A DNA stretch of 32,483 nucleotides from Promethearchaeota archaeon. GTDB lineage: Archaea; Asgardarchaeota; Lokiarchaeia; Sigyniarchaeales; SOKP01. Within the stretch, counting starts at the first letter, position 1. Every line of letters starts with the position of its first letter. Below the pieces are notes generated by a model. It was not told the origin of the DNA and did not search any database. It saw nothing but the letters and a program-made list of their open reading frames with translations. Both the position numbers and the translations under genes were made by a program. Below, piece by piece: positions 1,445-30,755 of the stretch. The stretch covers positions 1 through 32,483 of the forward strand of contig RDOA01000006.1 in NCBI GenBank assembly GCA_011364925.1. The letters are read 5' to 3'.

Positions 1445-4321
1445 ATGACAGAATTAAAAACGATCAACGCACATTCAGAAAAAATTGAAAAAGTTGTAGA
1501 AGCATTCAAAACTTCACTTGAAAGCGGTATCTCTGAAGCTGAAGCAAGGGTAAGACTTGAGAAATACGGAAAGAACGAATTAATTAAAGAAAAAGGAAAA
1601 TCTGCTCTCCAAATTTTTGTGGGACAATTTAAAAGTTTCCTCGTATATTTATTATTCTTCGCGATAGTAATTTCAATAATTATTGGATTTTGGGAAAGTT
1701 CTAAGCACTCTGGAGCGTGGTCTTCAGAATATACAGACGCTATCGTTATATTTGCGATTTTAATCGTCAACGCAATATTAGGATTTTATCAAGAATTTCA
1801 GGCTGAAAAATCTATGGAGAGCTTAAAGAAACTAGCACCACATTTTGCAAAGGTTCGGAGAGATGGCAAGGTCAATGAAATTGCAGTAGAAGATATAGTT
1901 CCAGGAGATATTGCACTTGTTGAGGAAGGAGACAAATTCCCAGCTGATTTACGATTATTTAAAGAATTCTCATTTTATGTTGACGAGGCAATTCTAACAG
2001 GAGAATCAAAACCGGTTAAAAAGCATCTTGGTGTTGTCGATGATAAGATGATTTTAGCAGATAGAACAAATCTTGGATATATGAATACTATTGTTACCAG
2101 AGGTAATGCAGAAGGAATTGTAATTGGAACCGCAATGAATACTGAGATTGGAAAAATCGCTGAAAGCTTGCAGAAAGAAAAAGTTGGACCTAGTCCATTT
2201 CAAATTGAGGTAAATCGGTTTGGAAAACTATTAGGTCTGATAATCATTCTGATTTGTTTAGGTGTTTTAATCACAGAATTTATTATCATTGTAGCGACAG
2301 AGGGATTAACATTCTCCGATACTGAAATTCAAGAACTTGTTGAAGCTTTAGAAATTTCCATTAGTTTAGCGGTATCAGCAGTCCCAGAAGGTCTTGTCGT
2401 CGTCATTACTGTAGTTTTAAGCATCGGAATGAGAAAAATGGCAGATAGAAACGCCTTGGTTAGAAATTTAACCGCTGTAGAAACCCTCGGTCGCGTTAAT
2501 GTAATTTGTTCTGATAAAACAGGTACGCTAACGAAAAATGAAATGACAGTAGTTAAGATATATATAAACGAGAAAGTTTTAGATGTAGAGGGTGTTGGAT
2601 ACAATATAATAGGAGATATTAATGAGAGTGGAAATCCAATCGCAATGAATGCCGAACTTAAACGATTTTTAGAAGTTTGTTTGTATTGTAATAACTCAAA
2701 TGTCAACATTCTTAATAAGACTACGGGAGAAGTTAGTGTTGTCGGAGACCCAACTGAAATTTCTATGAAAGTTCTAGCACTAAAAAAGAATTTAAGCGAA
2801 AATTTTGAGAAATTAGACGAAATTCCATTTGATTCAGATAGGAAGATGATGAGTGTTATAGGGAATATTGATGGTAAAACATACGCGTTAATTAAAGGTG
2901 CTCCAGATGTACTCTTGAAAAATGCAACATCTATCTTAGAAAATGGGCAGAAAAAACCAATTGGAAATTCAGCTGATAAATTAGCAAATAAAAATGAGGA
3001 ATTTGCCAGAAGCGCATTAAGAGTTCTGGGTGTAGCTTATAAGGAATTAGAACCAGGATATGATATTAACGACATTGAAAAAGATTTTATTTATATAGGA
3101 TTAGTGGGAATCATTGATCCTGCTCGAGATGAAGTAAAATTTGCGATTAACGAAGCTAGAATGGCGGGAATTCGTACGATAATGATCACCGGAGATCATA
3201 GAATTACTGCTATTGCTATCGCCCATCAAATTGGTTTAACAGAAACTACAGAGGCTATAACTGGTGTAGAATTGGAAGCCATGAGTGATGAAGAATTATT
3301 AGAAAGGGTAAAAACAACAGATATCTTCGCAAGGGTTACTTCTGAGCATAAATTGAGAATTCTGAAAAAACTTAAAGATTTAGGTTTAATCGTCGCCATG
3401 ACAGGAGATGGGGTCAATGACGCACCAGCTGTAAAAGGATCTCATGTTGGAGTAGCTATGGGTCTGAAAGGTACGGAGGTAACTCAAGAAGCTTCGGATA
3501 TGATTCTTATCGATGATAATTATGCAACAATAGTTAACGCAATCGAGGAAGGAAGAGGTATTTTTGAGACTACTAAAGGCTTTTTCCGATATATGCTGAG
3601 TACTAATTTTGATGAAATTTTCCTAATTTTAGCTGCCTATATAGTAATGAAACTCTTCGCTAACATCTTTATTGGTATACCTGTTGAACCAATACAAATT
3701 CTTTGGCTAAACATAGCCACTGATGGTATACCCGCTATGGTACTTGGTTTAACGCCTACAGATCCTGATGTTATGAAAAATCCCCCAAGAAAAGGGTTCA
3801 CATTATTGAAAGAAATTAGAGGCCCCGCGTTATTGCTGGGAATTTATACTTCAATAACAGATATTTCTCTCTATTTAATTTTGTGGGGAGTATTAATTCC
3901 AATTTGGAGTAACCCATTGAATCCATTGGATCCCGCCCTTGTAAGTGGAACAACCATATTTGGTATTACCTATACCGCAGAACAATACGCTATAGCTTTA
4001 GCGCAAACAATAGTTTTTAGTAACTTGATAATATGTGAGTTATTATTTGTTTATACATGTACTAGTAATATAAAACCATTTTACAAATTTCCCAACAAAC
4101 ATTTGTTCTGGGCTACGGGACTATCACTTGGATTACAATTTTTAATACTTTACACACCAATGGGTATAGCGTTTCATGTCATACCGTTAACACAGTGGTA
4201 TTATTGGGTGGCTGTCCTCCTCGGAGCATTTAGCGTCTCTGTTGTTGATGAGTTAAGGAAATATCGAATAAGGTTAAAGCTAAGAAAAGACCCTGATTAT
4301 TTAACTAAGATAAATATTTAA
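1445..4321 (+). CDS. P2A-type cation-transporting ATPase, probably Ca2+ (SERCA-like)
   Basis: This 958-residue integral membrane pump hydrolyses ATP to move cations across the cytoplasmic membrane. All P-type motifs are present: TGES (185-188, actuator domain), DKTGTLT with phosphorylated D357, KGAP (484-487, nucleotide domain) and TGDGVND (653-659). Ten membrane helices can be placed in the usual P2 layout. Compared with SERCA, the calcium ligands have counterparts: M4 PEGL E315, M5 N721 and E724, M6 N756, T759 and D760, and M8 E865. This supports Ca2+ as substrate and a two-site binding pocket, although the M4 motif reads PEGLV instead of PEGLP. The N-terminus has the usual cation-ATPase start domain (GISEAEARVRLEKYGKNEL). 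It stands alone on its strand and is followed by T-runs. Ca2+ is inferred from ligand conservation; Mn2+ or another divalent ion is not excluded. Confidence 0.9.
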   Translation: MTELKTINAHSEKIEKVVEAFKTSLESGISEAEARVRLEKYGKNELIKEKGKSALQIFVGQFKSFLVYLLFFAIVISIIIGFWESSKHSGAWSSEYTDAIVIFAILIVNAILGFYQEFQAEKSMESLKKLAPHFAKVRRDGKVNEIAVEDIVPGDIALVEEGDKFPADLRLFKEFSFYVDEAILTGESKPVKKHLGVVDDKMILADRTNLGYMNTIVTRGNAEGIVIGTAMNTEIGKIAESLQKEKVGPSPFQIEVNRFGKLLGLIIILICLGVLITEFIIIVATEGLTFSDTEIQELVEALEISISLAVSAVPEGLVVVITVVLSIGMRKMADRNALVRNLTAVETLGRVNVICSDKTGTLTKNEMTVVKIYINEKVLDVEGVGYNIIGDINESGNPIAMNAELKRFLEVCLYCNNSNVNILNKTTGEVSVVGDPTEISMKVLALKKNLSENFEKLDEIPFDSDRKMMSVIGNIDGKTYALIKGAPDVLLKNATSILENGQKKPIGNSADKLANKNEEFARSALRVLGVAYKELEPGYDINDIEKDFIYIGLVGIIDPARDEVKFAINEARMAGIRTIMITGDHRITAIAIAHQIGLTETTEAITGVELEAMSDEELLERVKTTDIFARVTSEHKLRILKKLKDLGLIVAMTGDGVNDAPAVKGSHVGVAMGLKGTEVTQEASDMILIDDNYATIVNAIEEGRGIFETTKGFFRYMLSTNFDEIFLILAAYIVMKLFANIFIGIPVEPIQILWLNIATDGIPAMVLGLTPTDPDVMKNPPRKGFTLLKEIRGPALLLGIYTSITDISLYLILWGVLIPIWSNPLNPLDPALVSGTTIFGITYTAEQYAIALAQTIVFSNLIICELLFVYTCTSNIKPFYKFPNKHLFWATGLSLGLQFLILYTPMGIAFHVIPLTQWYYWVAVLLGAFSVSVVDELRKYRIRLKLRKDPDYLTKINI

Positions 4322-5501: not shown

Positions 5502-6587
5502 TTAATCATCTTCAAAATGTTTAAAAAATAAGCCAATTCCAACTAATTTAAATGTGTCCTGAACATTTACATTTCGTAATGCGGATGTTTCGGTAAAAAG
5601 ACTTTTCAATTCTCTTGCTTTTTTCAATCCCTCTTCTTGAGATATTACTCTATCTTCTTTTAAATCTATTTTATTTCCAATAAGAACAAATGGTATATTA
5701 CCTAATTCTTTTTGAGCATCCTTAAGCCAAAAATCCGTCGCTTCTTCGAATGTTTCTCTTCTGGTGACATCGTACATTATAAACGCACAATTTGCTCCCG
5801 TATAATATTCATGTCTAACTCTCTTGAAGAAAGTTTGTCCTGCTAAATCATAGATTAAAAATTTGATTACATCGTCTTTAAAACCTTGAACATAATATCG
5901 TTGTGAAGATATTGCAATACCCAATGTCGGGCGATAATCTATAATTTCTTCTTTTTTAAGAAATCGGCTGACAAGAGTAGTCTTACCAACTGCAGCTGAC
6001 CCCAATACGATTAGTTTAAAAACTTTATCTATATGTTCACTCTTTTTGATTTTATGAGTAGGAGTTACTCCTTCTATAATAGACTTTGAGTGTTGGACAG
6101 AAAACCTGTCTAAACCTAAAGAGAAAGAATCGTATATGGATAAATCGGGTATTTCAAGAGAATTAAATTTAAAATCAAAACTATCTTCAAGTAATTGAGC
6201 GATTTTTTCGACAACAAGATATGCTATCGGGAAAAGGGTATCTAGATTTGTATTATAGTCACAAACAAGCAATAATATTGCTTCAAAGCCTGCCTCTAAG
6301 TATATAATTCGATTATGCTCAGTTTCAAATGAGCCACTCCCATAACGACCGGTTTTATATTCATGGCTAATTTTATCGAGAAGATTTTCGACAATTGCTG
6401 TAAACGCTCCATAGATATCTTCAGATTTTTTATCTACTTCAGTCGTTTCTTCGAATTTACCGTATTTAGACAATAATAAACCTTCGTTTGAATAAATATA
6501 GGCTATCATTATGTCATTTCGTGAATCTACAAAATTTTTTAATAGAATGCGAAGATTTTCCTCTTTCGTAGTAGCTTCTGAATGCAT
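5502..6587 (-). CDS. Roadblock/longin-like domain fused to a Rab-like small GTPase
   Basis: The 361-residue protein has two parts. Residues 1-135 form an alpha/beta domain (IMIAYIYSNEGLLLSKYGKF, then an IIYLEAGFEAILLLVCD strand pair and a long helix) that looks like a roadblock/LC7 or longin-like module. After a linker of about 50 residues, 188-361 is a Ras-superfamily GTPase with P-loop GSAAVGKT (196-203), switch I T221, DLAGQ (247-251), NKID (305-308) and ETSAL (333-337). All five G motifs are intact, so GTP binding and hydrolysis are expected. Switch II reads DLAGQ, so the usual WDTAGQ has YDLAGQ here. No C-terminal cysteine is present, so prenylation is unlikely and localisation may depend on the N-terminal domain. 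Such fusions are typical of Asgard archaea. The gene is divergent from acdB. Confidence 0.88.
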   Translation of the reverse strand: MHSEATTKEENLRILLKNFVDSRNDIMIAYIYSNEGLLLSKYGKFEETTEVDKKSEDIYGAFTAIVENLLDKISHEYKTGRYGSGSFETEHNRIIYLEAGFEAILLLVCDYNTNLDTLFPIAYLVVEKIAQLLEDSFDFKFNSLEIPDLSIYDSFSLGLDRFSVQHSKSIIEGVTPTHKIKKSEHIDKVFKLIVLGSAAVGKTTLVSRFLKKEEIIDYRPTLGIAISSQRYYVQGFKDDVIKFLIYDLAGQTFFKRVRHEYYTGANCAFIMYDVTRRETFEEATDFWLKDAQKELGNIPFVLIGNKIDLKEDRVISQEEGLKKARELKSLFTETSALRNVNVQDTFKLVGIGLFFKHFEDD

Positions 6588-7651: not shown

Positions 7652-10600
7652 ATGTCTAAACAGCTATTTAATAAAAAACAGAAGTTGTTCTTTTTGATTT
7701 TCTTGACTTGCGGAATGACGGTAACCTTTTTGGGTTTACCTTTCTTTAACTCGTATTTATTTACCGATATCTCCGAAAAAAGTAATCCTATTGAATTAGA
7801 TAATCAATTTAACCAGCCTAAAATCGCTGAATATCAAAGTTATAGCGGTAGTGGTGAGATGTTAAACATTACCTTACACCAGTCTTTAATCAACACATCA
7901 AATATTCAGATTAATTACTTGACAGGAACTTATAGTTTTTTTGAGGCAAGTCCACCATTCACGGGATTTAAAAGTTCCTTTACTAACATTACAGTTGATA
8001 ATATTAATGCTTACAATCAAAGCATTACGATCGAAGATGATGCTATCGATGGTGGAGACGATGTCGCAACAATATCTGTAACTGCATTTACTGTTCCTTC
8101 AAGTTGCTACATATTAAACGCTTCTTTCTATGTTCGTGTAGCTTTAGGTAGCCCAACGGCGACAATTTACTTATATAGCTCCACGTGGGATTCGGGAAAT
8201 AGTAGATCTACGCCGACAGGATCAGGAAAAAATATTGGGTCATTTTCTCCTCCAAGTACTAATTGGTATAATATAGAATTAACAAAGACTTTCTTAAATA
8301 ATTCCCAGACAGCAAATAATACGTGGTTCATTGGTTTATACAACTCAGTTCCAGCTACTACTCTAGAATGGCGATTTGTTGATGATATTTCGAATGGGGA
8401 TAATTCGGATGCTTACAGGTTTTCAGCGGGATGGAATTTTGAAAGTAAAGATTATGAGTGCCGAGTTTTTCTTTCACCGATAAATCCAACACCAAATCCA
8501 GAAGATATAGGACTAAAAATTAACAATACGATTGTTAATGGATATCCGAATATTAATGGTTCTGGTTACTGGTCGTCCTATGAAGCTGTGGGTAGCCTCT
8601 CAGGGAATATCCAATTTGATATTAATGCAGATTGGTATAATATCTCTTGTGATATACCAAAAGTACAGATTAATTATACAAAGTCAGACATTCAAGCAAT
8701 TTCTTCATTTGATATTTCCAGTAGTGGCCTTGATGTAAACTGGAATGTTACTGTACCATCTGGTTTGAATTATTTCGATTCGAGATTAAATAATTATGTA
8801 ATAAATTATACAATTCCACGCATTTGGCACGAAGGTTCTATTAGAGTATTTAATGGTTCCACAGAAAAAACAGTCTTTAAAAGATTGCTTAACAATGGAT
8901 ATCGAGAAATACAAGTTTTAAACGCGGGTAATGGTATGTATTGGTACTTAAACGCAACATCATCTAATTTATTCTCCTCAATTGATACCTATGTAGGTGG
9001 AATAGCTTTAAGTAGAGTTAACCATTCAGACATAGTTAGATTAAATACAACATTTATTGAGACGATTTATGATGGGATATTAAACCTAAGCATTTTTACT
9101 CCAAATCAGGGCTATTTAAACCATACAAAAATAATTGATCTTACTCCCATAGGAGCAGATAATGAATTTTTTGTATCAGATTGGGATGTATCTGTAAATG
9201 TTACTGAATATGGTGCTTTTAAAATTCAAGTGTCTTGGAATAACGATACTGCTGCGGGATTATTAGAAGATTATATTACGGTCATAGCTGATACTAGCTT
9301 AACCTTGCAACCCTATCCGTTAAAATATACCTTTAATTCCAGTGCTACATTCAATTTAACAGTATTCTATCAAGACACAGGTTTAAGTGCAGGTGTCGAA
9401 GCAGATAGTATAAGATATCAGATTGGAAGTGGTGGTCAAAGAGATGCTAGTAGTTTCTATATTGGTGGTGGTTATTATAATATTACAATTGATGCAAACG
9501 ATGCAGATTTCAATTATGGTTCAAATACGATAATTGTAAGCGTAGAAAAGACTTATTATAATAACCAAACCGAATCTGAGGCGTTTACTATATTAGCTGA
9601 AACCGATGCTTATATAACTTATCCAGCTATGAACGATATTTTTGATTCAGGAGATACGATTGAACTTGAACTTTATTATAATGATACAATTAAAAATTCA
9701 GGAATTGGAGGTGCTACAATTGAATATAGCCTTGGAGGATCACCATTTAGAATAGATGCTGCAATAACAGATTATGGGACGGGTTATTATAATATAACGA
9801 TTTCTGCTTCTGATGGGGATTTTGGAGGTTATGGAATTAAAGACATTGATGTAAACATTAATATGGATTATCATTATAATCAGTCCGAATCAGTTACTAT
9901 TAAATTATTAGGGGAGACTTCACCGATAGCACCTGTAAGGGTTCCAAATAAAGCATACTATACTGCTGCTGAAACATTTAATATTTCACTATATTTTGAA
10001 GACAGCGTTAAAAGTATAGGAATAAGTGGAGCGACTATAACAGTAGACATAGGTGGAACCGTCTATAATCCTACTGCGTTAACCGACTATGGTGATGGAA
10101 ACTACGATCTGATAATAGATTGTAGCGATGTAATCTTTAGTAGCTATGGAGTTTTTCCAATCAGAATTAATGCAACTAAAACAAACTACTATAACCAAAC
10201 ATATACTTTAGACACATTAATTGTAGGAAACGAGTCACTTTCGGTGCAGGCGCCTAATTCTGGTGCAGTTTATACTATAGGTCAGAGTTTTGATATAACT
10301 ATCGAATATATTGACACAATTTTAAGTACTGGAATTGACGGAGCAACAATCGAATATAGTCTTAATGGAGGATCCACATTTAATTCAACTGGTGTGAATT
10401 CTATCGGACCTGGCCAATATAATATAACGATTTATGCTAGTGATGCTGATTTTGTTAGTTTCGGCTTTGTTGATGTCATTATTGATGCTTCCAAGCAATA
10501 TTATGAAAATAGGTCAACAACTTATACGTTCCATAGGCAAATAACTACTCAAATTGCTCCTCAAAATGCAGTAGATTTAGGGACAGTAATAAAAGGACTT

Positions 10601-13258
10601 AATATCACATATACCTTTAACTATTCTGACACAAATTTAAAATCTATAGATCGCGTTAATTGGACGAGAATAAGTGCTGAGGCTAATTTTGGAGCATGGT
10701 TAGAGAATTTAGGAAATGGCAATTATACTATGCATTTAGATACTACAAATGTACTTGTTACGGGCGTACCGTATGTATACGAGTTTATTGTTTACGCTGT
10801 TGGAAATGAAACGCAGACTTTGAGTTTAACGGTTAATGTGCTAATTATTGATACTGATGTAACAGTCAATTCATATATTCCATTAATTGCAAGAAATTCA
10901 GGCTTAAATCAAACGGTTAAATTCTACTTCAATGACACAACAAATAATCTTCCTGTTTTAAATATCGCTACAAATAATATTATTGTTAAAAATTACGCTA
11001 CGGGTATAGCTTTTGGTGCTGGACAATTTTGGCTCTATGATCCATACAATAATGGCACATATATCTTAGATATTACCATGGGAACCAGAAATTCAGGATG
11101 GTACACACTAGAAGTCAACGCATCGAAGTTTCCAAACTATGACTACACGCTATTTAATGTGAGCTTTTATTATAGAGGTAATTACACTGATATTAATCTC
11201 ATATCGTTATCGGACCCAAGCGGCCCACTTGTGCCGACTGGATTGTATAATTACACCATATTTGAAGGAAGCGATCTTGTAATTGAATTCAATATAACTG
11301 ATTCAGAATTTCTTGATACTTTAATCGTGGGTGATGCAGATTTGTATACAGTTAGATATACTAATTTAGGTACTGGATCGAACGGTGTTCTTGCTACTAG
11401 TCTAAATTTTATAACGATTCTACATAGAGGAACAATTTACACCTCAAATCCTGCCCTAACCGTAGGTAGATATCTATTAAACCTTACAACTTCGAGAACA
11501 AACTATGAAGATGCTTGGTTCACTTTCAATTTAACAATAACCGCAAAATACCAAACTAATTTAACTATAGTATTTGCGCCTACTCAGGTCAACGCAGGGG
11601 ATGAATTGACGATTATCTTAAAAGCTGAATACAATAATGGAACAATGTGGTTACCTATAGTTAATGGAGCAATCAGAATGACACCTTACTTCAATGGGCT
11701 CCTTTCCACAATTCAAAACGATATTACAAATACTTCAGGTGAGATAAAGTTCGTTATTATTACGGGGAGTAATGTCAGAAGCATAAATATAACTATTGAA
11801 CTTATTGTTGCATATAATTACCAAAATAAGTTATATAACATCCCTGCTTCACAAATAACAGTGATACCACCAACACCGCCTTTAACCTTCGATGACTTCC
11901 TTCCCTACATAATTATAATAGGCGCTGCCTTGGCTGTAGTAGTTACTGCGGTAGCAACCTATCGAGGTGTTGTTGTCCCTAAAAAGAAGGAAAAGCAACG
12001 CATATTAACCGAAGTGAAAACTATTTTTGACGATGCAATTAATCTAGAACACATCTTAGTATTATATAAAGGAACCGGAACTTGTATTTTCTTCAAATCT
12101 TATGGTTCAGAACAAATCGATCCTGAGTTAATAGGAGGTTTTCTATCTGCAGTTTCTTCGTTTGGCAAGGAAATGGCTACTCAAGCAGCGTTGAATGAAA
12201 TTTCCTATGGAGATAAAATGCTACTTTTAGCAGATGGATATCTAATAAGAGTTGCCCTGGTATTAGGGAAAAATGCATCGCTAATTCTACGAAGACATTT
12301 AAAAGAATTCATTGAAATGTTTGAGAATAATTACAAGGATATTCTTCCAAACTGGCGTGGTCAATTAAATTACTTCAAGAATGCTGGGATGATTGTCGAT
12401 GACATCTTGAATACATCAATCATACTTCCTCATCAGATTTCTTATGATTTCTCAAGTGTAAAGGACTTAAAAAATCCTCACTCGAGGGATATATTGAAAG
12501 TTGCACAGAGTTGTTGCGAAGAAGCTGAGAGAGAATTCTTTTTTATTGCAACCTTATTAAAAGAAGCTTCTGAGAGGACTAGTAAAGATACTGCAGAAAT
12601 TTTTATGGGAATTAAGGAATTAAGAGATAAAAAAATGTTAATCCCTATAGAAATCTCTGCCATTGAAGCTCAACCAATTTCTCAACAAGAATTAAACTTG
12701 ATTAACCAGAAAGTTGGAGCATTAACGAATTTAACCAGCGAAGAAAAACAAAAATTAGTGCAGGATCTTGCTCAATTAGGTCCAATTGAAAGGGAAGCAT
12801 ATCTTACTAGTTTAACCAAACAGGCTGAAATAGTTACTGCACCAATCAAAACTTCCGTTGAAGGATTTGATGTGGAGAATAAGAAATCTGCGAAAAAAGG
12901 AATTAAAGAGTTATTGAAGCGTGGAAAAATGGCACATGGAAAGAAAGATTACATTAGAGCTATTGAACTCTACGAAAGTGCAGCAATGTTAGCTTCCAAT
13001 TGGGAACTAGCTGACGATTATCTCAGAATCGAAGAAACAATTCGTAAGACCAAGATTGAAGATATGATGGAAAAGAAGACCAACTTAGAAAAAGAAGCTA
13101 AAGAAGCAGTTAAAGCAAAGAATTACGCTGAAGCTGCTGCCAAGTATAAGTACGCTTCGAGAATGGCCTCTGAAATTTTTAAATTAGGTGATACAGCTAT
13201 GACAAAAGAAGTAAAAAGATTAACTAACAAATCCAACGAATACGAGAAATTAAAATAA
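7652..13258 (+). CDS. Giant single-pass surface protein: Ig-like ectodomain, TM helix, cytoplasmic longin-like domain and helical tail
   Basis: The protein has 1,868 residues from the ATG at 7652; the frame is open upstream to a TTG at 7643, but TGAT precedes the ATG. Residues 8-30 form a signal sequence or anchor. About 35-1415 is an extracellular beta-rich region with dozens of NxS/T sequons and tandem Ig-like modules. A transmembrane helix follows at about 1418-1438 (YIIIIGAALAVVVTAVATY) with a basic stop-transfer KKKEKQR. The cytoplasmic part begins with a roughly 150-residue longin/roadblock-like domain (about 1451-1600: HILVLYKGTGTCIFFKSYG, later a helix ending NYFKNAGMIVDDIL). It ends with TPR/MIT-like helices (1743-1868: AHGKKDYIRAIELYESAAM and AKNYAEAAAKYKYASRMAS). 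I know no named family for the whole. The layout suggests a receptor or adhesin talking to longin-binding partners such as small GTPases; that is inference. Confidence 0.85.
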   Translation: MSKQLFNKKQKLFFLIFLTCGMTVTFLGLPFFNSYLFTDISEKSNPIELDNQFNQPKIAEYQSYSGSGEMLNITLHQSLINTSNIQINYLTGTYSFFEASPPFTGFKSSFTNITVDNINAYNQSITIEDDAIDGGDDVATISVTAFTVPSSCYILNASFYVRVALGSPTATIYLYSSTWDSGNSRSTPTGSGKNIGSFSPPSTNWYNIELTKTFLNNSQTANNTWFIGLYNSVPATTLEWRFVDDISNGDNSDAYRFSAGWNFESKDYECRVFLSPINPTPNPEDIGLKINNTIVNGYPNINGSGYWSSYEAVGSLSGNIQFDINADWYNISCDIPKVQINYTKSDIQAISSFDISSSGLDVNWNVTVPSGLNYFDSRLNNYVINYTIPRIWHEGSIRVFNGSTEKTVFKRLLNNGYREIQVLNAGNGMYWYLNATSSNLFSSIDTYVGGIALSRVNHSDIVRLNTTFIETIYDGILNLSIFTPNQGYLNHTKIIDLTPIGADNEFFVSDWDVSVNVTEYGAFKIQVSWNNDTAAGLLEDYITVIADTSLTLQPYPLKYTFNSSATFNLTVFYQDTGLSAGVEADSIRYQIGSGGQRDASSFYIGGGYYNITIDANDADFNYGSNTIIVSVEKTYYNNQTESEAFTILAETDAYITYPAMNDIFDSGDTIELELYYNDTIKNSGIGGATIEYSLGGSPFRIDAAITDYGTGYYNITISASDGDFGGYGIKDIDVNINMDYHYNQSESVTIKLLGETSPIAPVRVPNKAYYTAAETFNISLYFEDSVKSIGISGATITVDIGGTVYNPTALTDYGDGNYDLIIDCSDVIFSSYGVFPIRINATKTNYYNQTYTLDTLIVGNESLSVQAPNSGAVYTIGQSFDITIEYIDTILSTGIDGATIEYSLNGGSTFNSTGVNSIGPGQYNITIYASDADFVSFGFVDVIIDASKQYYENRSTTYTFHRQITTQIAPQNAVDLGTVIKGLNITYTFNYSDTNLKSIDRVNWTRISAEANFGAWLENLGNGNYTMHLDTTNVLVTGVPYVYEFIVYAVGNETQTLSLTVNVLIIDTDVTVNSYIPLIARNSGLNQTVKFYFNDTTNNLPVLNIATNNIIVKNYATGIAFGAGQFWLYDPYNNGTYILDITMGTRNSGWYTLEVNASKFPNYDYTLFNVSFYYRGNYTDINLISLSDPSGPLVPTGLYNYTIFEGSDLVIEFNITDSEFLDTLIVGDADLYTVRYTNLGTGSNGVLATSLNFITILHRGTIYTSNPALTVGRYLLNLTTSRTNYEDAWFTFNLTITAKYQTNLTIVFAPTQVNAGDELTIILKAEYNNGTMWLPIVNGAIRMTPYFNGLLSTIQNDITNTSGEIKFVIITGSNVRSINITIELIVAYNYQNKLYNIPASQITVIPPTPPLTFDDFLPYIIIIGAALAVVVTAVATYRGVVVPKKKEKQRILTEVKTIFDDAINLEHILVLYKGTGTCIFFKSYGSEQIDPELIGGFLSAVSSFGKEMATQAALNEISYGDKMLLLADGYLIRVALVLGKNASLILRRHLKEFIEMFENNYKDILPNWRGQLNYFKNAGMIVDDILNTSIILPHQISYDFSSVKDLKNPHSRDILKVAQSCCEEAEREFFFIATLLKEASERTSKDTAEIFMGIKELRDKKMLIPIEISAIEAQPISQQELNLINQKVGALTNLTSEEKQKLVQDLAQLGPIEREAYLTSLTKQAEIVTAPIKTSVEGFDVENKKSAKKGIKELLKRGKMAHGKKDYIRAIELYESAAMLASNWELADDYLRIEETIRKTKIEDMMEKKTNLEKEAKEAVKAKNYAEAAAKYKYASRMASEIFKLGDTAMTKEVKRLTNKSNEYEKLK
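9313..10540 (+). repeat. Four tandem Ig-like modules of about 100 residues inside the surface protein
   Basis: Units start at about 9313, 9604, 9931 and 10240. Each repeats the order: a strand with Y-F/D-T and a DT/DS turn, the phrase GI-GATIEYSLGG (variants AGVEADSIRYQIGSGG and GISGATITVDIGG), then G-YYNITI-ASDADF, a strand, and a YYNQ or YYEN end. The copies have diverged at the protein level, so this is an old duplication and not a recent slippage. A fifth, weaker unit may follow at about 10550-10850 (NGNYTMHLDTTNV). Confidence 0.7.
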
Positions 13259-17653: not shown

Positions 17654-18799
17654 TTATGATTTTGGATTCATTACTCTCCCCATAAATAATATTGCCTTCG
17701 TATAGGAGTCTATTAATAGAAAGATGAATGGATGATCGGCACGAAACTCTTCTGGTTGCGTCATATTCATTGCCGCACCTAGCATAACAACTGCGGTTAC
17801 AGCTGCTGCTTCAGTACCTTGCTCATTTACTTCAATAAAAGTTTTATGGATAATCTGAGAAATGTGCCTCGGGGGGTCTTCAGCAATTCGTGAGAAATCA
17901 GCTCCATCAGAAAATGCACTAGTCATTCCCAAGTCGTATAGTGCTTTTAGAAGTTCATACTTTCTTTCAATCTTAAATTTTGGAATTAATACTTTAATTT
18001 CTCTTTCCCAAACTTTATATAGTTTATTAATGTAAGAATTAACTTTATCACAAGTCAAAATTCTCTCTAATTCTATAGTCCCGTCAACTTTTTCAGGAAG
18101 GAATACTACCATCGAAATGTGGTCAAGTGTCCCAGATATTCGAGCACCCTTATATGGCATCTCTATGATCTGGAATCCATCTTCGTTCAGCCAGCGAAAT
18201 CTATCTTTTTGAAACATCATAGGAATTTTAATTTTTTCACCAGAAATCAATGTAAAATCTTTGTCTTCTGTATCTCTTTCCTTGAATTCTTTATCCCAAG
18301 TGCCCTTAAAATAAATAGCATTCACTAATACAAGTCCATCTTCTTTTTTTATTGTATGAATCACATCCGTAATTTTACCTTGAGTTTGATCCGCAACCCA
18401 TTTGTTTATTTTTGAACACGTTTCAGTAATAGCGTTGAAATTTAAATTCCAAATTCCCCCGCTATAATTATCTTCTACAATCCATAAGTATCTTTCAAGT
18501 AGCTTATAGTTTTCGTGAACGCATAATAGATTTGCCATGCTGAGTTCTGAACCAGTATTGCGTTGAAAAATACTTAAAAGCTTTTTGAAAGTTGTATGAT
18601 ATCGATTTTGATCAAGTGTGATATGGAGAGTTGACTTTATCTGTTTTTCAGTTATACTACCAGCTCCAGCAAATACCATTGAGAGTAATGTATATATACT
18701 TAATGGTGAAAAAAATGCGTTATCTTCGGGTGTTTTCATTGCTTGAAAAATTTCAATTGAAAACTCGTTATTCCCTTTAATGATTTGATCTTCTTCCAT
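17654..18799 (-). CDS. Serpin (inhibitory type), without signal peptide
   Basis: This 381-residue protein has full serpin length. Recognisable elements are NAFFSPLSIYTLLSMVFAGA (27-46), VNAIYFKGTWDKEF (159-172), ISMVVFLPEK (228-237), IPKFKIERKYEL and the C-terminal DHPFIFLLIDSYTKAILFMGRVMNP. The reactive-loop hinge is EQGTEAAAVTA (326-336), which fits the inhibitory consensus E-x-G-T-x-A-A-A. Small hinge residues allow loop insertion, so it should trap a serine or cysteine protease. Counting from the hinge, P1 falls near A342 in MLGAAMN, give or take one residue, suggesting an elastase- or subtilisin-like target. There is no signal peptide, so it probably protects against an intracellular protease. 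Serpins are uncommon in archaea; horizontal origin is possible. It has its own promoter block. Confidence 0.93.
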   Translation of the reverse strand: MEEDQIIKGNNEFSIEIFQAMKTPEDNAFFSPLSIYTLLSMVFAGAGSITEKQIKSTLHITLDQNRYHTTFKKLLSIFQRNTGSELSMANLLCVHENYKLLERYLWIVEDNYSGGIWNLNFNAITETCSKINKWVADQTQGKITDVIHTIKKEDGLVLVNAIYFKGTWDKEFKERDTEDKDFTLISGEKIKIPMMFQKDRFRWLNEDGFQIIEMPYKGARISGTLDHISMVVFLPEKVDGTIELERILTCDKVNSYINKLYKVWEREIKVLIPKFKIERKYELLKALYDLGMTSAFSDGADFSRIAEDPPRHISQIIHKTFIEVNEQGTEAAAVTAVVMLGAAMNMTQPEEFRADHPFIFLLIDSYTKAILFMGRVMNPKS

Positions 18800-19983: not shown

Positions 19984-21105
19984 TTATTTAAAGAAATTGT
20001 TTATTGTTGTTGTTATATACTCAATTTCTTTATCCTCTAAATAGGGATGGATTGGTAAGCTTAGCATTTCATCAGCAAATCGAATTGTATTTTCATTATT
20101 GAAATGATCTAGATAGCTGAATGGTTTGGTTTTCTGAATAGGGATCGGATAATGAATTACTGTTTGAATTCCATTTTCGTTCAAATATTTTTGGAGCTCG
20201 TCTCGATTTTTTATACAAATTGCATAGATATGAAAAACATTTTTCTCTGCGTAAGGGGCTAATTTTGGTGTTATAACTTGGTCAATATCTTTCATTAGGT
20301 CGCTAATTTTCTTTGCAACTTCAATTCTCATGTTATTCCACTTATCTAAGTGTTTTAATTTCTCATCAACGATTATAGCTTGAATCGTATCAAGTCTGTG
20401 GTTATAGCCTTTAAAGTCATAAAAATATTTTTTACTCGAACCATAATTTCTTAGGGATTTACATTTTTGATACAGCTCTTCATTATCTGTAGTAATTATA
20501 CCAGCATCACCAGCAGCACCTAAATTCTTTCCGGGGTATAAAGAGAATGCAGATATATCACCAAAACTCCCCACTTTCTTACCATCAACTAATGCACCAT
20601 GTGCTTGAGAAGAATCTTCCAATATCTTGCAATCGTATTCACTTGCTAATTCGACGATCCTTCTAATGTCTGCGGGGTGACCAAATAAGTGGACAGGAAT
20701 AATAACACACGATTTCCATTTGTTTCTATTCTCTTTCAAGCATTTCTCTAATAATTTAGTATCAATTTGAAAGTACTCATCGCAGTCTATCAGCTGGATA
20801 TCTGCTTTTAACTTACATAAGTATGTAATAGCTAACACCGTTGCAACAAATGTATTAGCTGGAATTATAACACCACATGGAGATTCGACATTAAGAGCTT
20901 CTAAGGATATTTTTAATGCATCCGTGCCATTTGAAGTACCAATTCCATACTTGGTTCCAATATACTTAGCAAAATTTTCCTCAAATTGATCTACAGGAGC
21001 ACCACCTATAAAGTTGGATTGTTCAAATAATAGATCTAATCGTGGTTTCACTTCATCTTTTATAACATCCCATTGTCTAGCTAAATTATTAAAAAGTACT
21101 TTCAA
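19984..21105 (-). CDS. DegT/DnrJ/EryC1/StrS-family sugar aminotransferase (WbpE-like)
   Basis: The 373-residue PLP enzyme transfers an amino group to a keto sugar nucleotide. The PLP lysine is K193 in SLYPGKNLGAAGDAG. Other signatures are GTSNGTDAL (56-64), IPANTFVAT (81-89), PVHLFGHPADI (137-147), LEDSSQAHGA (162-171) and GYNHRLDTIQAI. With the adjacent Gfo/Idh dehydrogenase and hexapeptide acetyltransferase, the best model is 3-amination of a 3-keto UDP-GlcNAc uronic acid, as by WbpE. The start codon is TTG, with a perfect GGAGGT six bases before it inside the end of the previous gene. Only two bases separate the two reading frames, so translation is probably coupled. The substrate is inferred from context. 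Confidence 0.88.
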   Translation of the reverse strand: MKVLFNNLARQWDVIKDEVKPRLDLLFEQSNFIGGAPVDQFEENFAKYIGTKYGIGTSNGTDALKISLEALNVESPCGVIIPANTFVATVLAITYLCKLKADIQLIDCDEYFQIDTKLLEKCLKENRNKWKSCVIIPVHLFGHPADIRRIVELASEYDCKILEDSSQAHGALVDGKKVGSFGDISAFSLYPGKNLGAAGDAGIITTDNEELYQKCKSLRNYGSSKKYFYDFKGYNHRLDTIQAIIVDEKLKHLDKWNNMRIEVAKKISDLMKDIDQVITPKLAPYAEKNVFHIYAICIKNRDELQKYLNENGIQTVIHYPIPIQKTKPFSYLDHFNNENTIRFADEMLSLPIHPYLEDKEIEYITTTINNFFK

Positions 21106-21107
21106 CT

Positions 21108-21998
21108 TTATACCTCCAATATTTTTATAATGTCTACTGTTAGTTTCATTTGCTCAATCATTTCTTCATTTGATAAATTAAAAAACGAATTAATTGCGTT
21201 AATTAAAGGAGGAGAGTATTCACCACAGGGATAGCTTAAATTTCCTGAATAGATCGGAAAACTGACATTACTTGAGTCTTCGTATTGTAAAAACCTTTTA
21301 TAGTCATCCCAAACGATAAAATACTTTTCAAATTCAAATACACATTCTCGCACCTTTTTTCTGTAATTCCAACTAACATTAATAGTAGCAATAAAATCGT
21401 TGAATTGAATGAAACCAAGGGAACTATCATCTTGCTCCGCATCATTATTCCTTTTATAGTCTGTCCATCGTACATTAACAGGTTGCTCTGAAAATAGATA
21501 CTGGATGATGGAGATATCATGCGATGCTAAATCCCATCTTGCATTTACATCAAATCTCTCTGGACCTAAATTAAGTCTATTCATAGAGATACTCCTAATT
21601 TTACCCAATTTCCCATTGTCGTAATCCTTTTTTATAGTTTCAATATGAGAGTTAAATGTAAATACCCAATCCGTAAATAAAATTACTTTATGTTTGAATG
21701 CGATGTCATATAGAAGTTTTGCTTCGGAACTTGAAGTTGTTAGAGGTTTTTCACAGAAGACATGAATATTTTTTTCAAGAAAATATTTACAAATCTCAAA
21801 ATGAGTTTTTGTAGGAGTTGTAATAAACACATACTCACAATCTAATTTTTGATAATCGTTTACAAACTTATATTTTTTATACTTATCCTCTTTGGGAAGT
21901 GTGATATCACATATCTCAGTATCAACCTTTCCCATACTTTCTAAATTTCTGAGAATAATTTTACCCCAATATCCAAATCCAACTATACCTAACTTCAT
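21108..21998 (-). CDS. Gfo/Idh/MocA-family sugar-nucleotide oxidoreductase (WbpB-like)
   Basis: The protein has 296 residues. Residues 1-110 form a Rossmann domain with GFGYWG (7-12) for NAD(P). CEKPL (82-86) contains the conserved Glu-Lys-Pro whose lysine contacts cofactor and substrate. ARWDLASHDI (153-162) supplies the catalytic-region Asp and His of the family. Next to a WbpE-type aminotransferase and a WbpD-type acetyltransferase, the likely step is oxidation of the 3-hydroxyl of UDP-GlcNAc uronic acid. The Gfo/Idh family is broad, so substrate assignment rests on the neighbours. The gene begins six bases after the acetyltransferase stop, in the same operon. No UDP-GlcNAc 6-dehydrogenase (WbpA) is in the window. 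Confidence 0.82.
   Translation of the reverse strand: MKLGIVGFGYWGKIILRNLESMGKVDTEICDITLPKEDKYKKYKFVNDYQKLDCEYVFITTPTKTHFEICKYFLEKNIHVFCEKPLTTSSSEAKLLYDIAFKHKVILFTDWVFTFNSHIETIKKDYDNGKLGKIRSISMNRLNLGPERFDVNARWDLASHDISIIQYLFSEQPVNVRWTDYKRNNDAEQDDSSLGFIQFNDFIATINVSWNYRKKVRECVFEFEKYFIVWDDYKRFLQYEDSSNVSFPIYSGNLSYPCGEYSPPLINAINSFFNLSNEEMIEQMKLTVDIIKILEV
21112..21117 (-). promoter_or_regulatory. Shine-Dalgarno site GGAGGT that fixes the TTG start of the aminotransferase
   Basis: On the minus strand the sequence is GGAGGTATAAAG followed by TTG. The site overlaps the last codons (Glu-Val-stop) of the dehydrogenase gene and lies six bases from the TTG at 21103-21105. No ATG is available at a comparable distance. 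Confidence 0.75.
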
Positions 21999-22004
21999 TT
22001 TTAT

Positions 22005-22445
22005 TTAATCCTTTAAATTTTTAATAATTTTAGCAGGATTTCCTGCAACTACGCAGTTTGCTGGGACATTTTTAGTTACAACTGCACCTGCTCCTATAAT
22101 TGCATTATCTCCTACATTTATAGGTAATAAAGTAACATTTGAACCTATACGCACATTATCTCCAATTTTAGTTTCTTTTTTAATCCAACTCTCAAAATTT
22201 GGAGAATCAACAAATAAATCGTTAGTAAACATAGTGCCGTGACCAATAAAACAATGTTTTCCAATAGAAACTCCATCACAGATGAAACAATGGCTTTGTA
22301 TCCTTGTACCATAACCTATAGTAACATTTTTTTGAATTTCAACAAAAGGTCCAACAAAACAATCTTTACCAATTACACAGCCATACAAATTTACAGGTTC
22401 GATGATTTTTACATTTTCCCCTATTTTGCAATTATTTATCGGCAA
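22005..22445 (-). CDS. Left-handed beta-helix (hexapeptide) N-acetyltransferase, WbpD-like
   Basis: The 146-residue protein consists mostly of hexapeptide repeats (IGENVKI, IGKDCFVG, IGYGTRI, IGKHCFIG, IGDNVRIG, VGDNAIIG), which form a left-handed beta helix and work as trimers with acetyl-CoA. The segment GHGTMFTND (68-76), with H69 and N75, is typical of sugar 3-N-acetyltransferases such as WbpD and QdtC. The end AGAVVTKNVPANCVVAGNPAKII is the usual C-terminal motif. In this operon it probably acetylates the new 3-amino group, giving a 2,3-diacetamido sugar. The start is TTG: an in-frame stop nine codons upstream leaves no other start. No clear Shine-Dalgarno site is seen. Confidence 0.85.
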   Translation of the reverse strand: MPINNCKIGENVKIIEPVNLYGCVIGKDCFVGPFVEIQKNVTIGYGTRIQSHCFICDGVSIGKHCFIGHGTMFTNDLFVDSPNFESWIKKETKIGDNVRIGSNVTLLPINVGDNAIIGAGAVVTKNVPANCVVAGNPAKIIKNLKD

Positions 22446-22554
22446 TTTTACGAGGTATTTCTTTTTTATTACTCAATATATTCAATCATTTAGATAGTAA
22501 ATTCTAATTATATTTTGAATTTTACTAAAAGAGAAAGAAAAAAGAGAAATATCT

Positions 22555-23631
22555 TTAAAATGATGAATAAAAGGGATCAAAGATTGTAATAATCACAATA
22601 TACGCCAATGCTACTGCTAAAATTGATAGAACAAAGGTTATGATGTGATTATCTACCCTTATTTTCCCCTTTATTATTCCTAAGTTCAAATTGAAAGAGA
22701 AAAAGTCTTTAGCTTTTAAAATTCCGTAAAATATAAGAGGTTGAAAGTATCTAACAAAAGGATTACTGAAAAACATTACTGAAGCAGTCACTACGATTGA
22801 AAATATAACGAGCTCAAAAAGATCTGCTTTCTTGAATCTAAAGATCAGATAGAGGATAATAAGGATAGAAACTGGAATTAATCTAAAATAAAATGGAATA
22901 AATGTTTCACCTCGTGTGTTCCAAAATAGAAAAGTCATTAGAAAATTTTCACCAAAGAAGAATAGAGGTACTATTAGAAATAGAAATAATATAGATGCTG
23001 TAGTAATAAGAAACATTTTCATTTCTTTCCAATCTTTCTCAATAAGTAGTTTTAGAAAGAAGAATCCAACAAAAGGGATTGTGTATACTTTAGCTACTGC
23101 TGACAACGACAAGAAAGCATAGAATAAAATCCTACTTCTACTATCTTTTTTAGGGTAATATATTAAAGCCATAAACAAGAAGAAGAAAAAGAAAGCATCA
23201 GTTATGTGGTAACCGCAGTTCTGTATGCTAAACGAATTATTCAAGAAGAAAAAGGGATTTATTAGGAATAAACCCAACGCAAATTTCTTTTTAGGAATAT
23301 CAAAACTTTTAAGTACAAAATAAAACATTAATACAGTCAAAATATCTAAAAGAAATGCCCAGAATGCAAAGACTTCTATAATCCCAAATGAAATGAATCT
23401 GAAGAAAGTAAGAAGTATGATAGTTAAAGCGGGATATATGGTTGATGTGTAATTATTATAGTTATAGCCGACATCACCCCAACTTTTTCCCGGATCTAAG
23501 GAATGAGTATAATAATAATAAATTAACATGAAAATTCTAATAGCAATACCTATAATGACAAAAATAATTCCACTATTAAGGATAACTTTTCTTAAAAAAG
23601 ATTTATTTTCTGATTCAGTCCTATTTTCCAT
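22555..23631 (-). CDS. Polytopic membrane protein, probable GT-C-type glycosyltransferase
   Basis: The 358-residue protein has about nine or ten hydrophobic helices, the first at about residues 19-40. The first outer loop holds KSWGDVGYNYNNY with D53, the place where GT-C enzymes (dolichol-phosphate sugar users, Alg/PMT type) keep their catalytic acid. Further helices carry LINPFFFLNNSF and NPFVRYFQPLIFY, resembling archaeal mannosyltransferase-like proteins. It would transfer a sugar from a lipid-phosphate donor on the outer face of the membrane. Overall similarity is weak, so the call rests on topology, the first-loop acid and position between a GT2 gene and sugar-nucleotide genes. It is separated from the acetyltransferase gene by 109 AT-rich bases with no other feature. 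Confidence 0.6.
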   Translation of the reverse strand: MENRTESENKSFLRKVILNSGIIFVIIGIAIRIFMLIYYYYTHSLDPGKSWGDVGYNYNNYTSTIYPALTIILLTFFRFISFGIIEVFAFWAFLLDILTVLMFYFVLKSFDIPKKKFALGLFLINPFFFLNNSFSIQNCGYHITDAFFFFFLFMALIYYPKKDSRSRILFYAFLSLSAVAKVYTIPFVGFFFLKLLIEKDWKEMKMFLITTASILFLFLIVPLFFFGENFLMTFLFWNTRGETFIPFYFRLIPVSILIILYLIFRFKKADLFELVIFSIVVTASVMFFSNPFVRYFQPLIFYGILKAKDFFSFNLNLGIIKGKIRVDNHIITFVLSILAVALAYIVIITIFDPFYSSF

Positions 23632-23700
23632 TAATCAATCACCAAAGGTAATAAAACTAATTATCAAACAAATTAAACTATTTTGAATTGGTTGAAATAA

Positions 23701-24417
23701 TTAAGAGAGAATTGTTTTTAATCTGTAAGAGAGTAATTGGACAAAATTTTTTAAGATTGACCGAATTATGTAATAGGGATGTCTTGCAAATTCTTTTTCA
23801 ACATGATTAATAGGAATTTCAAAATATTTTAATCCTCTCTTTTTTAATAAATATACTAATTCAACTTCAATGAATGGTCCATTTGCTTTTGTGTATTTAA
23901 CTAATTCTTTACCGATATCTGTCTGAAACGCTTTTAAACAGTCCACATCGTTGTAATGAGTCCTAAAAAAAGCATTAACAAGCAATGTATGAAATTTTGA
24001 GATAAAAGTTCTTATGAAAGGGCGATCTACTTCACTTTTTTGGTGAAATCTTACACCAAAGATTATTGGATACTTGTTGATAAGTCTATATGCTCGTCCA
24101 ATAAAGTCTAAACTAAAAGCAAGATCCACAGGATAAAGAGTAACCATATCATTATTTGCGTGCAATATGCCATATCGATAAGCTCCTCCAAAAGATGGTG
24201 TTTTTAACGAAAAGAATTTAATATTAGAAAATTCAGTCTCTAATTCCTTAGCAATTATAGCGGTTTTGTCAGTACTTCCATTTTCAACAATGAGAATCTC
24301 AAAATCTTCACCGATGAGATTTTTTAAGTATCTATATATAATATTGATACTATTACGGAGATCCTTTTCTTCGTTATAAGCTGGAACTACAACGCTTATA
24401 CTGTTCATTTTTGGCAT
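23701..24417 (-). CDS. Family 2 glycosyltransferase, DPM1-like
   Basis: The 238-residue protein has a GT-A fold. VVVPAYNEEKDLRNSI (9-24) and ILIVENGSTDKT (41-52) are the nucleotide-binding signatures, and the family resembles dolichol-phosphate mannose or glucose synthases. It probably loads a sugar from a nucleotide donor onto a polyprenyl phosphate for the neighbouring GT-C-like enzyme. The metal-binding DxD site is changed: the expected D-A-D reads P-V-D in LYPVDLAF (95-101), so the first aspartate is missing. No membrane helix is obvious except a weakly hydrophobic C-terminus. A second in-frame ATG lies three codons after the first. It sits 52 bases downstream of the UPF0104 gene on the same strand. 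Confidence 0.8.
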   Translation of the reverse strand: MPKMNSISVVVPAYNEEKDLRNSINIIYRYLKNLIGEDFEILIVENGSTDKTAIIAKELETEFSNIKFFSLKTPSFGGAYRYGILHANNDMVTLYPVDLAFSLDFIGRAYRLINKYPIIFGVRFHQKSEVDRPFIRTFISKFHTLLVNAFFRTHYNDVDCLKAFQTDIGKELVKYTKANGPFIEVELVYLLKKRGLKYFEIPINHVEKEFARHPYYIIRSILKNFVQLLSYRLKTILS

Positions 24418-24469
24418 CGATGACCAATTGATTTTATATGCTGTAATTATTTCTTAAGATATGTTTAAG

Positions 24470-25534
24470 TTATTTCTTCATCTGTTGAATTTCTTTTAAA
24501 CTAAGATTATAATGTAAAATAGAATATCCCCCAAATATTAGGAGGTAAGCACTTCTGAATAAATGATCAATTATAAAAATCGATAGAATTTGAGTATAAT
24601 ATTCAGGAAAAAGAATTGAACTTGGAGCGTAGAAGAATGAAATGAATAGTGCTCCAACATTTTCAGATATCCCCCATCCTCCAGGTGTTATAGGGAATGT
24701 TTTGCTAAAAAATGTCAAAATTTTTGCTAGAATTAGTAAGAATATATTAAAGTCATAACCTAATGGGTAAACAATTATAGCAATTATAGCAGCGTCAATA
24801 ATCCATGTAGGAAAGCCCAATAAAATAATGTAGATAAGTTCTTTTTTATGGTACTTGAAGTTTTTCATCCCTTCTTTGAAATTTATTATAAATCGTCCTA
24901 AATAATGTGCTAATTTTGGAGAAAGTTTCTTAATAACTTTTAAAATAGTATCTGTCTTGTAGAGAAGCAATAGAAAAAGGATTAATATACCTACAATAAA
25001 AATTGCTCCAATTACGATGTAAAATTGGATAGTTTGGCCTAAAATTAATCTCTCGCTAGCTACACCATAGCTACTAAGATATAAATAAAGTAAAGCAAAA
25101 CAGCTTATAAAAAATAGCAAAATTAGATCCAACACCCTTTCAATAGCAATTCCAGCTGCCGATTCACTAAGTCTTATATTTTCTTTATCTTTAATTATAA
25201 ATATCTTTGCAAAATCACCTAATTTTGCAGGAGTTAAATCGTTAATAACAAAAGCTGCACCAATTGAGAAATAAGATGTTGAATAAGCTATTTCTTTATC
25301 AAGTCCTTTAAATATTAATTTCAGCTTATATGCTCTTAAGATGAATGCAACTGTATAGGATATTATGAATAATATCAATCCCAAGATACCAACTGTTAAG
25401 ATTTTATCAACTAAACTTGGAAAATCAACAAAATAGACCATAACTATTAGTAACAGAATCGTAGCGATTCCTATTAGGAGACGCTTTCTCCTTTTTAGCC
25501 AAATTAAAACTTTACTTCTGCTTTCTTCGTTCAT
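24470..25534 (-). CDS. UPF0104 / lysylphosphatidylglycerol-synthase-TM-like membrane protein
   Basis: The 354-residue protein has about eight membrane helices. Family signatures are NDLTPAKLGDFAK (98-110), AIERVLDLILLF (130-141) and PITPGGWGISENVGALF near the C-terminal third. Members of this family (COG0392; the membrane part of the archaeal N-glycosylation protein AglD) are often encoded with polyprenyl-linked glycosyltransferases and are suspected of moving lipid-linked sugars across the membrane. That role is not proven. Here it leads the minus-strand glycan block and is divergent from the U32 gene, so the 25535-25650 stretch is probably a shared promoter region. Confidence 0.82.
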   Translation of the reverse strand: MNEESRSKVLIWLKRRKRLLIGIATILLLIVMVYFVDFPSLVDKILTVGILGLILFIISYTVAFILRAYKLKLIFKGLDKEIAYSTSYFSIGAAFVINDLTPAKLGDFAKIFIIKDKENIRLSESAAGIAIERVLDLILLFFISCFALLYLYLSSYGVASERLILGQTIQFYIVIGAIFIVGILILFLLLLYKTDTILKVIKKLSPKLAHYLGRFIINFKEGMKNFKYHKKELIYIILLGFPTWIIDAAIIAIIVYPLGYDFNIFLLILAKILTFFSKTFPITPGGWGISENVGALFISFFYAPSSILFPEYYTQILSIFIIDHLFRSAYLLIFGGYSILHYNLSLKEIQQMKK

Positions 25535-26937: not shown

Positions 26938-27864
26938 ATGATTATGATGGAAAATTATACCAAAAAGATTATTGAGTCTGTTCCTAACTACTCTGAAGGC
27001 ACAGACGGCACTAAGATCGAAAAAATCGTTTCTGAAATAAAAAATGTTCCTCAAACTAAGATTGTTGACATTCAATACGATTCAGACTACAATAGAGCAG
27101 TTATTACTTTTGTAGGAACACCTGAAGCTGTATTAAAAGCTAATATTGCTGCTGCTAAAAAAGCAATAGAATTAATTGATATGAACAAACATAAGGGCCA
27201 ACACCCTCGTATAGGTGCTATTGATGTCGTGCCATTTGTTCCCGCTCAAAATGTTTCCATTGAAGAGTGTATTGAATTATCGAAAAAATTTGCTATGGAG
27301 TTGGCAAATGAGGGTGTGCCAGTGTATTTATACGAAGAATCGGCTCGTCTTTCAGAGAGAAAAAATATCGATAATATTCGAATCGGAGAATACGAAGGAT
27401 TGAAGGAAAGTATTGAAAAAGACCCAAGCAAAAAACCTGACTATGGACCTTCTAAGTTCCATCCAACTGCAGGTGCAGTTATTACGGGAGCTAGATATCC
27501 TCTTATTAGCTTCAACATTAATCTTGGAACCAAAAATGTAAAAATAGCGAAGAAAGTGGCTAAGGCTATTCATTTGCAATCAGGAGGATTGGTAAATGTC
27601 AAAGCAATGGGTACTGAATTAAAAGGTAGGGATTGTGTTCAAGTAGGCATTAGTAATATTAACTTCAAAAAAACACCGCTCTATCGTCAAATGGAGCTCG
27701 TGCGGATTGAAGCTGGTCGATATGGGGTACCCATTGTTGGAACCGAGTTGGTAGGAGTATTACCATTAGAGGCAGTTCTTAACTCGCTTGATTATTATTT
27801 ACAAATTGAAAATCCTAAAAAACTCGAACCAAAGCATTTATTAGAAAACTATTTCGATTTCTAA
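26938..27864 (+). CDS. ftcD: Glutamate formimidoyltransferase
   Basis: The 308-residue enzyme moves the formimino group from N-formimino-glutamate to tetrahydrofolate, or possibly to the methanopterin-type carrier of this organism, leaving glutamate. ESVPNYSEG (13-21) is the family N-terminus. H89 in GQHPRIGAIDVVPFVP matches the catalytic histidine of the porcine enzyme. FHPTAGAVITGARYPLISFNINLGT and GLVNVKAMGTEL are also conserved. The cyclodeaminase half of the bifunctional mammalian protein is absent, so release of ammonia needs a separate enzyme not seen here. Several ATGs occur in the first four codons; I keep the first. The gene follows the U32 gene and converges on hutI with 13 bases between stops. 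Confidence 0.93.
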   Translation: MIMMENYTKKIIESVPNYSEGTDGTKIEKIVSEIKNVPQTKIVDIQYDSDYNRAVITFVGTPEAVLKANIAAAKKAIELIDMNKHKGQHPRIGAIDVVPFVPAQNVSIEECIELSKKFAMELANEGVPVYLYEESARLSERKNIDNIRIGEYEGLKESIEKDPSKKPDYGPSKFHPTAGAVITGARYPLISFNINLGTKNVKIAKKVAKAIHLQSGGLVNVKAMGTELKGRDCVQVGISNINFKKTPLYRQMELVRIEAGRYGVPIVGTELVGVLPLEAVLNSLDYYLQIENPKKLEPKHLLENYFDF

Positions 27865-27877
27865 TACTATAAGATAA

Positions 27878-29209: not shown

Positions 29210-29222
29210 TAAATTTGCTTCC

Positions 29223-30737: not shown

Positions 30738-30755
30738 ATTTAATGCAAATCCATA

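Follow-up and report, generated by a model that had tools for sequence, protein, structure and literature searches.

A juxtamembrane longin domain in single-pass Ig-fold surface proteins of Asgard archaea, with a possible link to small GTPases

The Locus and the Encoded Protein

The stretch of DNA analyzed here (hereafter the window, 32,483 nucleotides) belongs to a 3.9 Mb genome in 112 contigs whose closest named relatives are Lokiarchaeial MAGs; the host genome is Lokiarchaeial. An open reading frame on the forward strand, open throughout from 7652 to 13258, encodes a protein of 1,868 residues from the ATG at 7652, and this protein is the subject of our study. It shares the window with a Ca-pump-like P-type cation ATPase having N- and C-terminal cation ATPase domains (1445–4321, forward strand), a Ras-like GTPase (Table 1), a full-length archaeal serpin (17654–18799, reverse strand; Pfam E = 1.6e-113) and a histidine-degradation set of formiminotransferase, amidohydrolase and urocanase (26938–32459). 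A surface-glycan gene set on the reverse strand (19984–25534), comprising a DegT aminotransferase, a Gfo/Idh oxidoreductase, a hexapeptide acyltransferase, a GT2 glycosyltransferase, a flippase-like LPG_synthase_TM protein and an unknown protein of 358 residues, may serve the glycosylation of surface proteins.

No family model in Pfam or NCBIfam matched any part of the 1,868-residue protein. Hydropathy, from which alone transmembrane (TM) helices were assigned in the window protein and in the surveyed receptors, revealed exactly two hydrophobic segments, the signal sequence and one TM helix (Table 1). A first-pass annotation of the DNA had proposed the order of signal, ectodomain, single TM helix, longin and TPR/MIT-like helices, and this order was borne out by hydropathy, AF2 modelling and fold searches. 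Neither an unrelated fold of the cytoplasmic region nor a lack of the TM–longin linkage in all relatives, the two outcomes that would have spoken against it, was observed. The order is kept in 20 or more independent MAG contigs, most of them with the same neighbors, and also in about a dozen families, and chance adjacency or misassembly was therefore rejected. Overall, the domain architecture and the membrane orientation of this longin receptor are well supported.

Table 1. Features of the longin receptor gene and a neighboring GTPase gene in the window.
Feature	Position	Strand	Basis
Signal sequence, residues 1–35, hydrophobic core 12–30	7652..7756	+	Hydropathy, sequence
N-terminal ectodomain, sequon-rich	7757..9289	+	Sequence, sequon count
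Six tandem Ig-fold modules, ~100 aa each	9290..11152	+	Profile; AF2 and PDB fold search of first three
Membrane-proximal ectodomain, sequon-rich	11153..11896	+	Sequence, sequon count
Transmembrane helix, residues 1416–1434	11897..11953	+	Hydropathy; conserved in A1
Basic juxtamembrane segment, P-K-K stop-transfer motif	11954..12004	+	Motif enrichment across receptors
Longin domain, cytoplasmic	12005..12421	+	Fold, profile placement, homology to longins that are soluble or fused to GTPases
Winged-helix-like segment, three helices and short strand	12476..12646	+	Predicted secondary structure; sub-threshold hits in paralogues
C-terminal TPR/MIT-like helical hairpins	12881..13252	+	AF2 model, fold and profile matches
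Ras-like GTPase with N-terminal extra domain (putative roadblock), candidate partner only	5502..6587	-	Synteny not conserved

An Ig-Fold Ectodomain

The ectodomain of the window protein contains 54 N-x-S/T sequons versus 25.9 expected (maximum of 40 in 1,000 shuffles), and an excess was also observed over 34 receptors, with 1259 sequons versus 551 expected. A repeat profile trained on four modules of the window protein located about six repeats of ~100 residues, starting from about residue 547. With this profile, module numbers ranged from 3 to 15 among orthologues, and those with a complete ectodomain had up to 15 copies (15 in Harpocratesius L099, 10 in L078). The AF2 model of three modules was all-beta, with a mean pLDDT of 92, and gave 836 matches to PDB structures at E<=1e-3, with Ig folds that included NCAM, titin and a bacterial ice adhesin. 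The protein consequently carries Ig-like beta sandwiches in tandem on the outer side of the membrane, and the Ig-repeat label given at first pass was correct. Surface adhesins built of Ig modules, such as the bacterial ice adhesin and NCAM-like proteins, share the tandem Ig-fold ectodomain but have no longin tail.

Orthologues that keep this domain order, mostly among unchanged neighboring genes, were found in four families of the taxonomic order to which the host belongs. Their tails were 50–90% identical while their ectodomains were only about 30–64% identical, and the tail is therefore constrained as the outside diverges. This pattern suggests that varied ligands feed one common intracellular pathway. 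It also bears on whether the protein is a structural surface-coat protein or adhesin whose longin only dimerises or anchors, and so fixes how the coat is spaced, with no part in signaling. Such a role would suit an ectodomain that is very long, glycosylatable and variable in repeat number, as well as the report that Ca. Lokiarchaeum ossiferum has complex surface proteins and no highly ordered S-layer (PMC9834061). However, it is the cytoplasmic part that is best conserved, and in this subfamily its >430 residues with further domains exceed what an anchor needs, so that we consider a purely structural role unlikely.

A Longin Domain Beneath the Membrane

In the window protein the TM helix is followed by the basic stretch YRGVVVPKKKEKQR. 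Lysine and arginine residues flanking the TM helix numbered 4.8 on the inside versus 0.7 on the outside, with 32 of 34 receptors in that direction, and a stop-transfer motif of proline followed by basic residues was found in 17 of the 34, versus 2.2 expected from shuffling. Across 33 proteins, drawn from about a dozen families, 10–28 residues (median 19) separated the TM helix from the longin, under a rule for the receptor class that permitted gaps of up to 60. The longin is thus placed ~19 residues beneath the membrane, on its cytoplasmic side.

An AF2 model computed from 42 aligned tails had a pLDDT of 80, and the first ~120 residues had the order beta-beta-alpha-beta-beta-beta-alpha. In Foldseek searches of the PDB, the top matches of the tail were the longin domains of AP sigma/mu, zeta-COP, Mon1-Ccz1, Fuzzy, TRAPP and VAMP7, at a probability of 1.00, with TM-scores on the target of up to 0.6–0.7 and E-values from about 2.5e-3; these modest E-values are probably due to the multi-domain query. 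The element order, beta-beta-alpha-beta-beta-beta-alpha(-alpha), matches that of solved longins and places the domain in the longin superfamily. At first pass the region had been called "longin/roadblock-like", and only the former half of that label stood. This is because no roadblock structure (MglB, LAMTOR) was present among the 50 best PDB matches, and the roadblock reading of the tail was rejected.

Sequence comparisons gave fainter signals. The window longin had no hit to curated longin profiles, a search of PDB sequences with a single tail sequence returned no hits, and the tail profile gave weak hits to AP sigma (E 0.3–0.5). Within the family, L022 scored 31.0 bits against Fuz_longin_1 (cut-off 26.1) and was aligned to the receptor longin profile at E 2e-6, and L019 had a sub-threshold match to Longin. 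By analogy with longins in general, the receptor longin is probably a dimer.

After the longin, the AF2 secondary structure shows a winged-helix-like arrangement of three helices and a strand, and equivalents C-terminal to the longin were seen in paralogues L019 (HTH_47) and L020 (DnaD_N) as sub-threshold hits. The paralogue hits to HTH_47, TrmB and DnaD, weak and below threshold, could be read as the mark of a transcription regulator that is held at the membrane by the longin–winged-helix pair and freed or activated on a signal. We regard this as very improbable, as the winged helices of ESCRT-II and PCI proteins bind proteins rather than DNA, and no release site was seen.

The C-terminal helices scored both as TPR and as MIT in fold and profile searches and are not to be named more precisely than "TPR/MIT-like". 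Their MIT matches included an archaeal katanin/Vps4-type MIT chain (E 0.003) and, by fold, calpain-7. Together with the fact that AP sigma/mu and zeta-COP are the best fold matches of the longin, they bring up the possibility that the tail is a sorting adaptor. In that case the longin would act as the small and medium subunits of the AP and COPI coats do, and the winged-helix segment and TPR/MIT-like helices would connect the surface protein to ESCRT or to coat-like machinery serving turnover, polar placement or the formation of vesicles or protrusions. Longin proteins that carry ESCRT-linked Vps28-C domains have been described in Asgard archaea (PMC10936438). Yet only some receptors carry the MIT/TPR extension and many end shortly after the longin and the winged-helix-like segment, and the PDB is rich in adaptor longins, so that the ranking of matches is biased. 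A sorting adaptor is on balance a doubtful reading, if a less improbable one than a coat protein, and it is compatible with the recruitment of GTPases.

Distribution in Asgard Archaea

The receptor longin was matched in 175 of 180 Asgard genomes at E<=1e-5, and the linkage of TM helix and longin recurs in relatives across the phylum, so that it is not a one-off of the window. Among the longin places located with a family profile in three genomes, the receptor type accounted for 6 of 38 in the host genome, a single one of 46 in G042 (a closed Lokiarchaeial genome) and 2 of 18 in G151; for lineages beyond these three it was mainly large-ORF hits that were fetched, so that counts there are biased. 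TM-longin receptors were found in families f1, f2, f5, f8, f13, f15, f18, f20, f21, f22 and f25, and in f3 and f4 from orthologues. Most of the 33–34 surveyed receptors share the Ig-module profile. The surveyed MAGs may be incomplete or misbinned.

Other longin proteins in the surveyed genomes were soluble proteins, longin–GTPase fusions and polytopic membrane proteins ending in a longin, the latter numbering 8 in the host genome, 8 in G042 and 4 in G151. Polytopic proteins ending in the same longin were observed in many lineages (L016, L115, L123, L128, L134, L152, L165, L170, L188, L196 and L210). One of these, L210, was the longest longin hit in the closed small genome G056, from which the receptor may be missing. 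Three tandem receptor-type longin genes of one Asgard genome, the third cut by the end of the locus, were observed at L192:1656-10498, and two in opposite orientation at L195.

An Asgard origin was supported when two degenerate patterns were run against 84,980 species, the one search that bears on a restriction to Asgard archaea: all confirmed loci were titled Asgard except for three contigs. These, titled Zixiibacteriota (L090) and Bathyarchaeota (L100, L103), carry the Asgard tail and are probably misnamed or misbinned.

Receptors were clustered in a tree built from 128 longins (11 label changes versus 29 by shuffling). A single clade, and with it one origin of all receptor longins, was rejected (AU p 0.024) in this tree of few columns, long branches and poor resolution. 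The joint of TM helix and longin is likely old and likely to have been gained or lost more than once. As the receptor longins do not form one clade, their function may differ between groups.

Relation to Known Longin Proteins and Small GTPases

At first pass, co-prediction with the GTPase encoded near the receptor gene, read as roadblock-type, had been put forward as a check. A special tie to this GTPase was not supported: it adjoins the receptor gene in 7 orthologous loci and is absent from 10 in which the interval is covered, and it is therefore not a fixed partner. A dedicated partnership was rejected on these grounds, and comparison also rejected the N-terminal domain of this GTPase as a member of the receptor longin family. 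Among the orthologous loci compared, no GTPase is a conserved neighbor of the receptor gene. The neighbors conserved beyond the genus are an ATP-grasp gene upstream and, downstream, RadA and a glucose-6-phosphate isomerase-like gene.

The longin family itself offers an indirect connection. In the host genome (G000), the protein L021 carries this longin ahead of an Arf/Rag-like GTPase domain (Arf E 2e-17), and its longin matched the receptor longin profile at E 4e-8 with hhalign; a second longin N-terminal to an Arf/Rag-like GTPase is present in G042 (L132). These fusions are of the same longin family and from the same genomes as receptors, but they are soluble, with the longin directly before the GTPase, and lack the ectodomain and TM helix that the receptor has. 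Lokiarchaeal longin–Arf fusions, and the 41 longins of Lokiarchaeum, were reported earlier in PMC4917890 and PMC10933270, and the latter summarises the literature on how longin and roadblock domains act as platforms for GTPases. In eukaryotes, small GTPase switches dock on longin domains.

Eukaryotic regulators of GTPases (Mon1-Ccz1, HPS1-HPS4, Fuzzy-Inturned, TRAPP Bet5-Trs23) have the longin fold in common with the receptor, and one Asgard paralogue scores above the Pfam cut-off for Fuz_longin_1. These regulators are subunits of cytosolic complexes, not tails of single-pass receptors. Longins also work without GTPases, in SNAREs and in adaptor small subunits. Longin SNAREs (VAMP7, Ykt6, Sec22) resemble the receptor in having a longin on a membrane protein; however, they have an N-terminal longin, a SNARE motif, a C-terminal anchor and no ectodomain, whereas in the receptor ectodomain and TM helix precede the longin, an order that rules out a longin SNARE. 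The AP and COPI small and medium subunits, although the best structural matches, are soluble coat subunits.

Comparable in domain content are Asgard Vps28-C/adaptin-appendage/longin proteins, in which TPR, Ig-like and HTH/PCI domains accompany the longin; the available sections of PMC10936438 present them as ESCRT-linked multidomain proteins and do not describe the order signal–ectodomain–TM–longin. TM receptors with longin tails are likewise not described in the available portions of PMC4917890 and PMC10933270, and the word "transmembrane" is absent from the main text of the latter. In the open-access literature we found no described family with an ectodomain–TM–longin architecture, in agreement with the first-pass annotation.

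Both halves of the protein, Ig ectodomain and longin, are of known kinds, and their combination is apparently undescribed; whether the longin is coupled to GTPases is, in our estimation, close to an even question. The leading explanation, judged from sequence comparisons and predicted folds and given about an equal chance for and against, is a single-pass Asgard surface sensor or adhesin that recruits small GTPases, or regulates them, through its juxtamembrane longin. Counting against it are the lack of a conserved GTPase neighbor, the lone receptor among the longin places of G042, the longins that work without GTPases and the failure of the receptor longins to form one clade. We hypothesize that a ligand or contact with a neighboring cell would alter the clustering or conformation of the receptor from outside, that at the plasma membrane the longin dimer would then recruit a small GTPase of the Arf/Rag/Rab-like kind or shift its nucleotide state, and that additional proteins that remodel membranes or the cytoskeleton would be brought in by the helical C-terminus.

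Were the coupling to GTPases shown, the protein would represent a new kind of receptor. Small GTPases and longin and roadblock domains abound in Asgard genomes, and a protein such as this one bears on the question of how these are attached to membranes or informed of events outside the cell. An early review emphasized the absence of SNARE parts from Lokiarchaeal longins and held that longins alone are no sign of trafficking (PMC4917890). A longin fixed under the plasma membrane on a large surface protein is a concrete candidate link from the cell surface to the GTPase system. The archaea concerned are the lineage closest to eukaryotes, and their cells are known for bearing protrusions and surface proteins. 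A broader proposal, to which we give somewhat less than even weight, is that receptors across the Asgard phylum signal directly into the eukaryote-like small-GTPase system through the juxtamembrane longin. Such a pathway, without a kinase, G-protein-coupled receptor or SNARE, would be unlike any described signaling system and possibly ancestral to the recruitment of GTPases to membranes in eukaryotes.

Longins of this family were also seen in other combinations: at L155:4467-5330 and L133:4417-5277 we observed a CBS domain fused to a receptor-family longin, and a V4R-like domain together with a longin.
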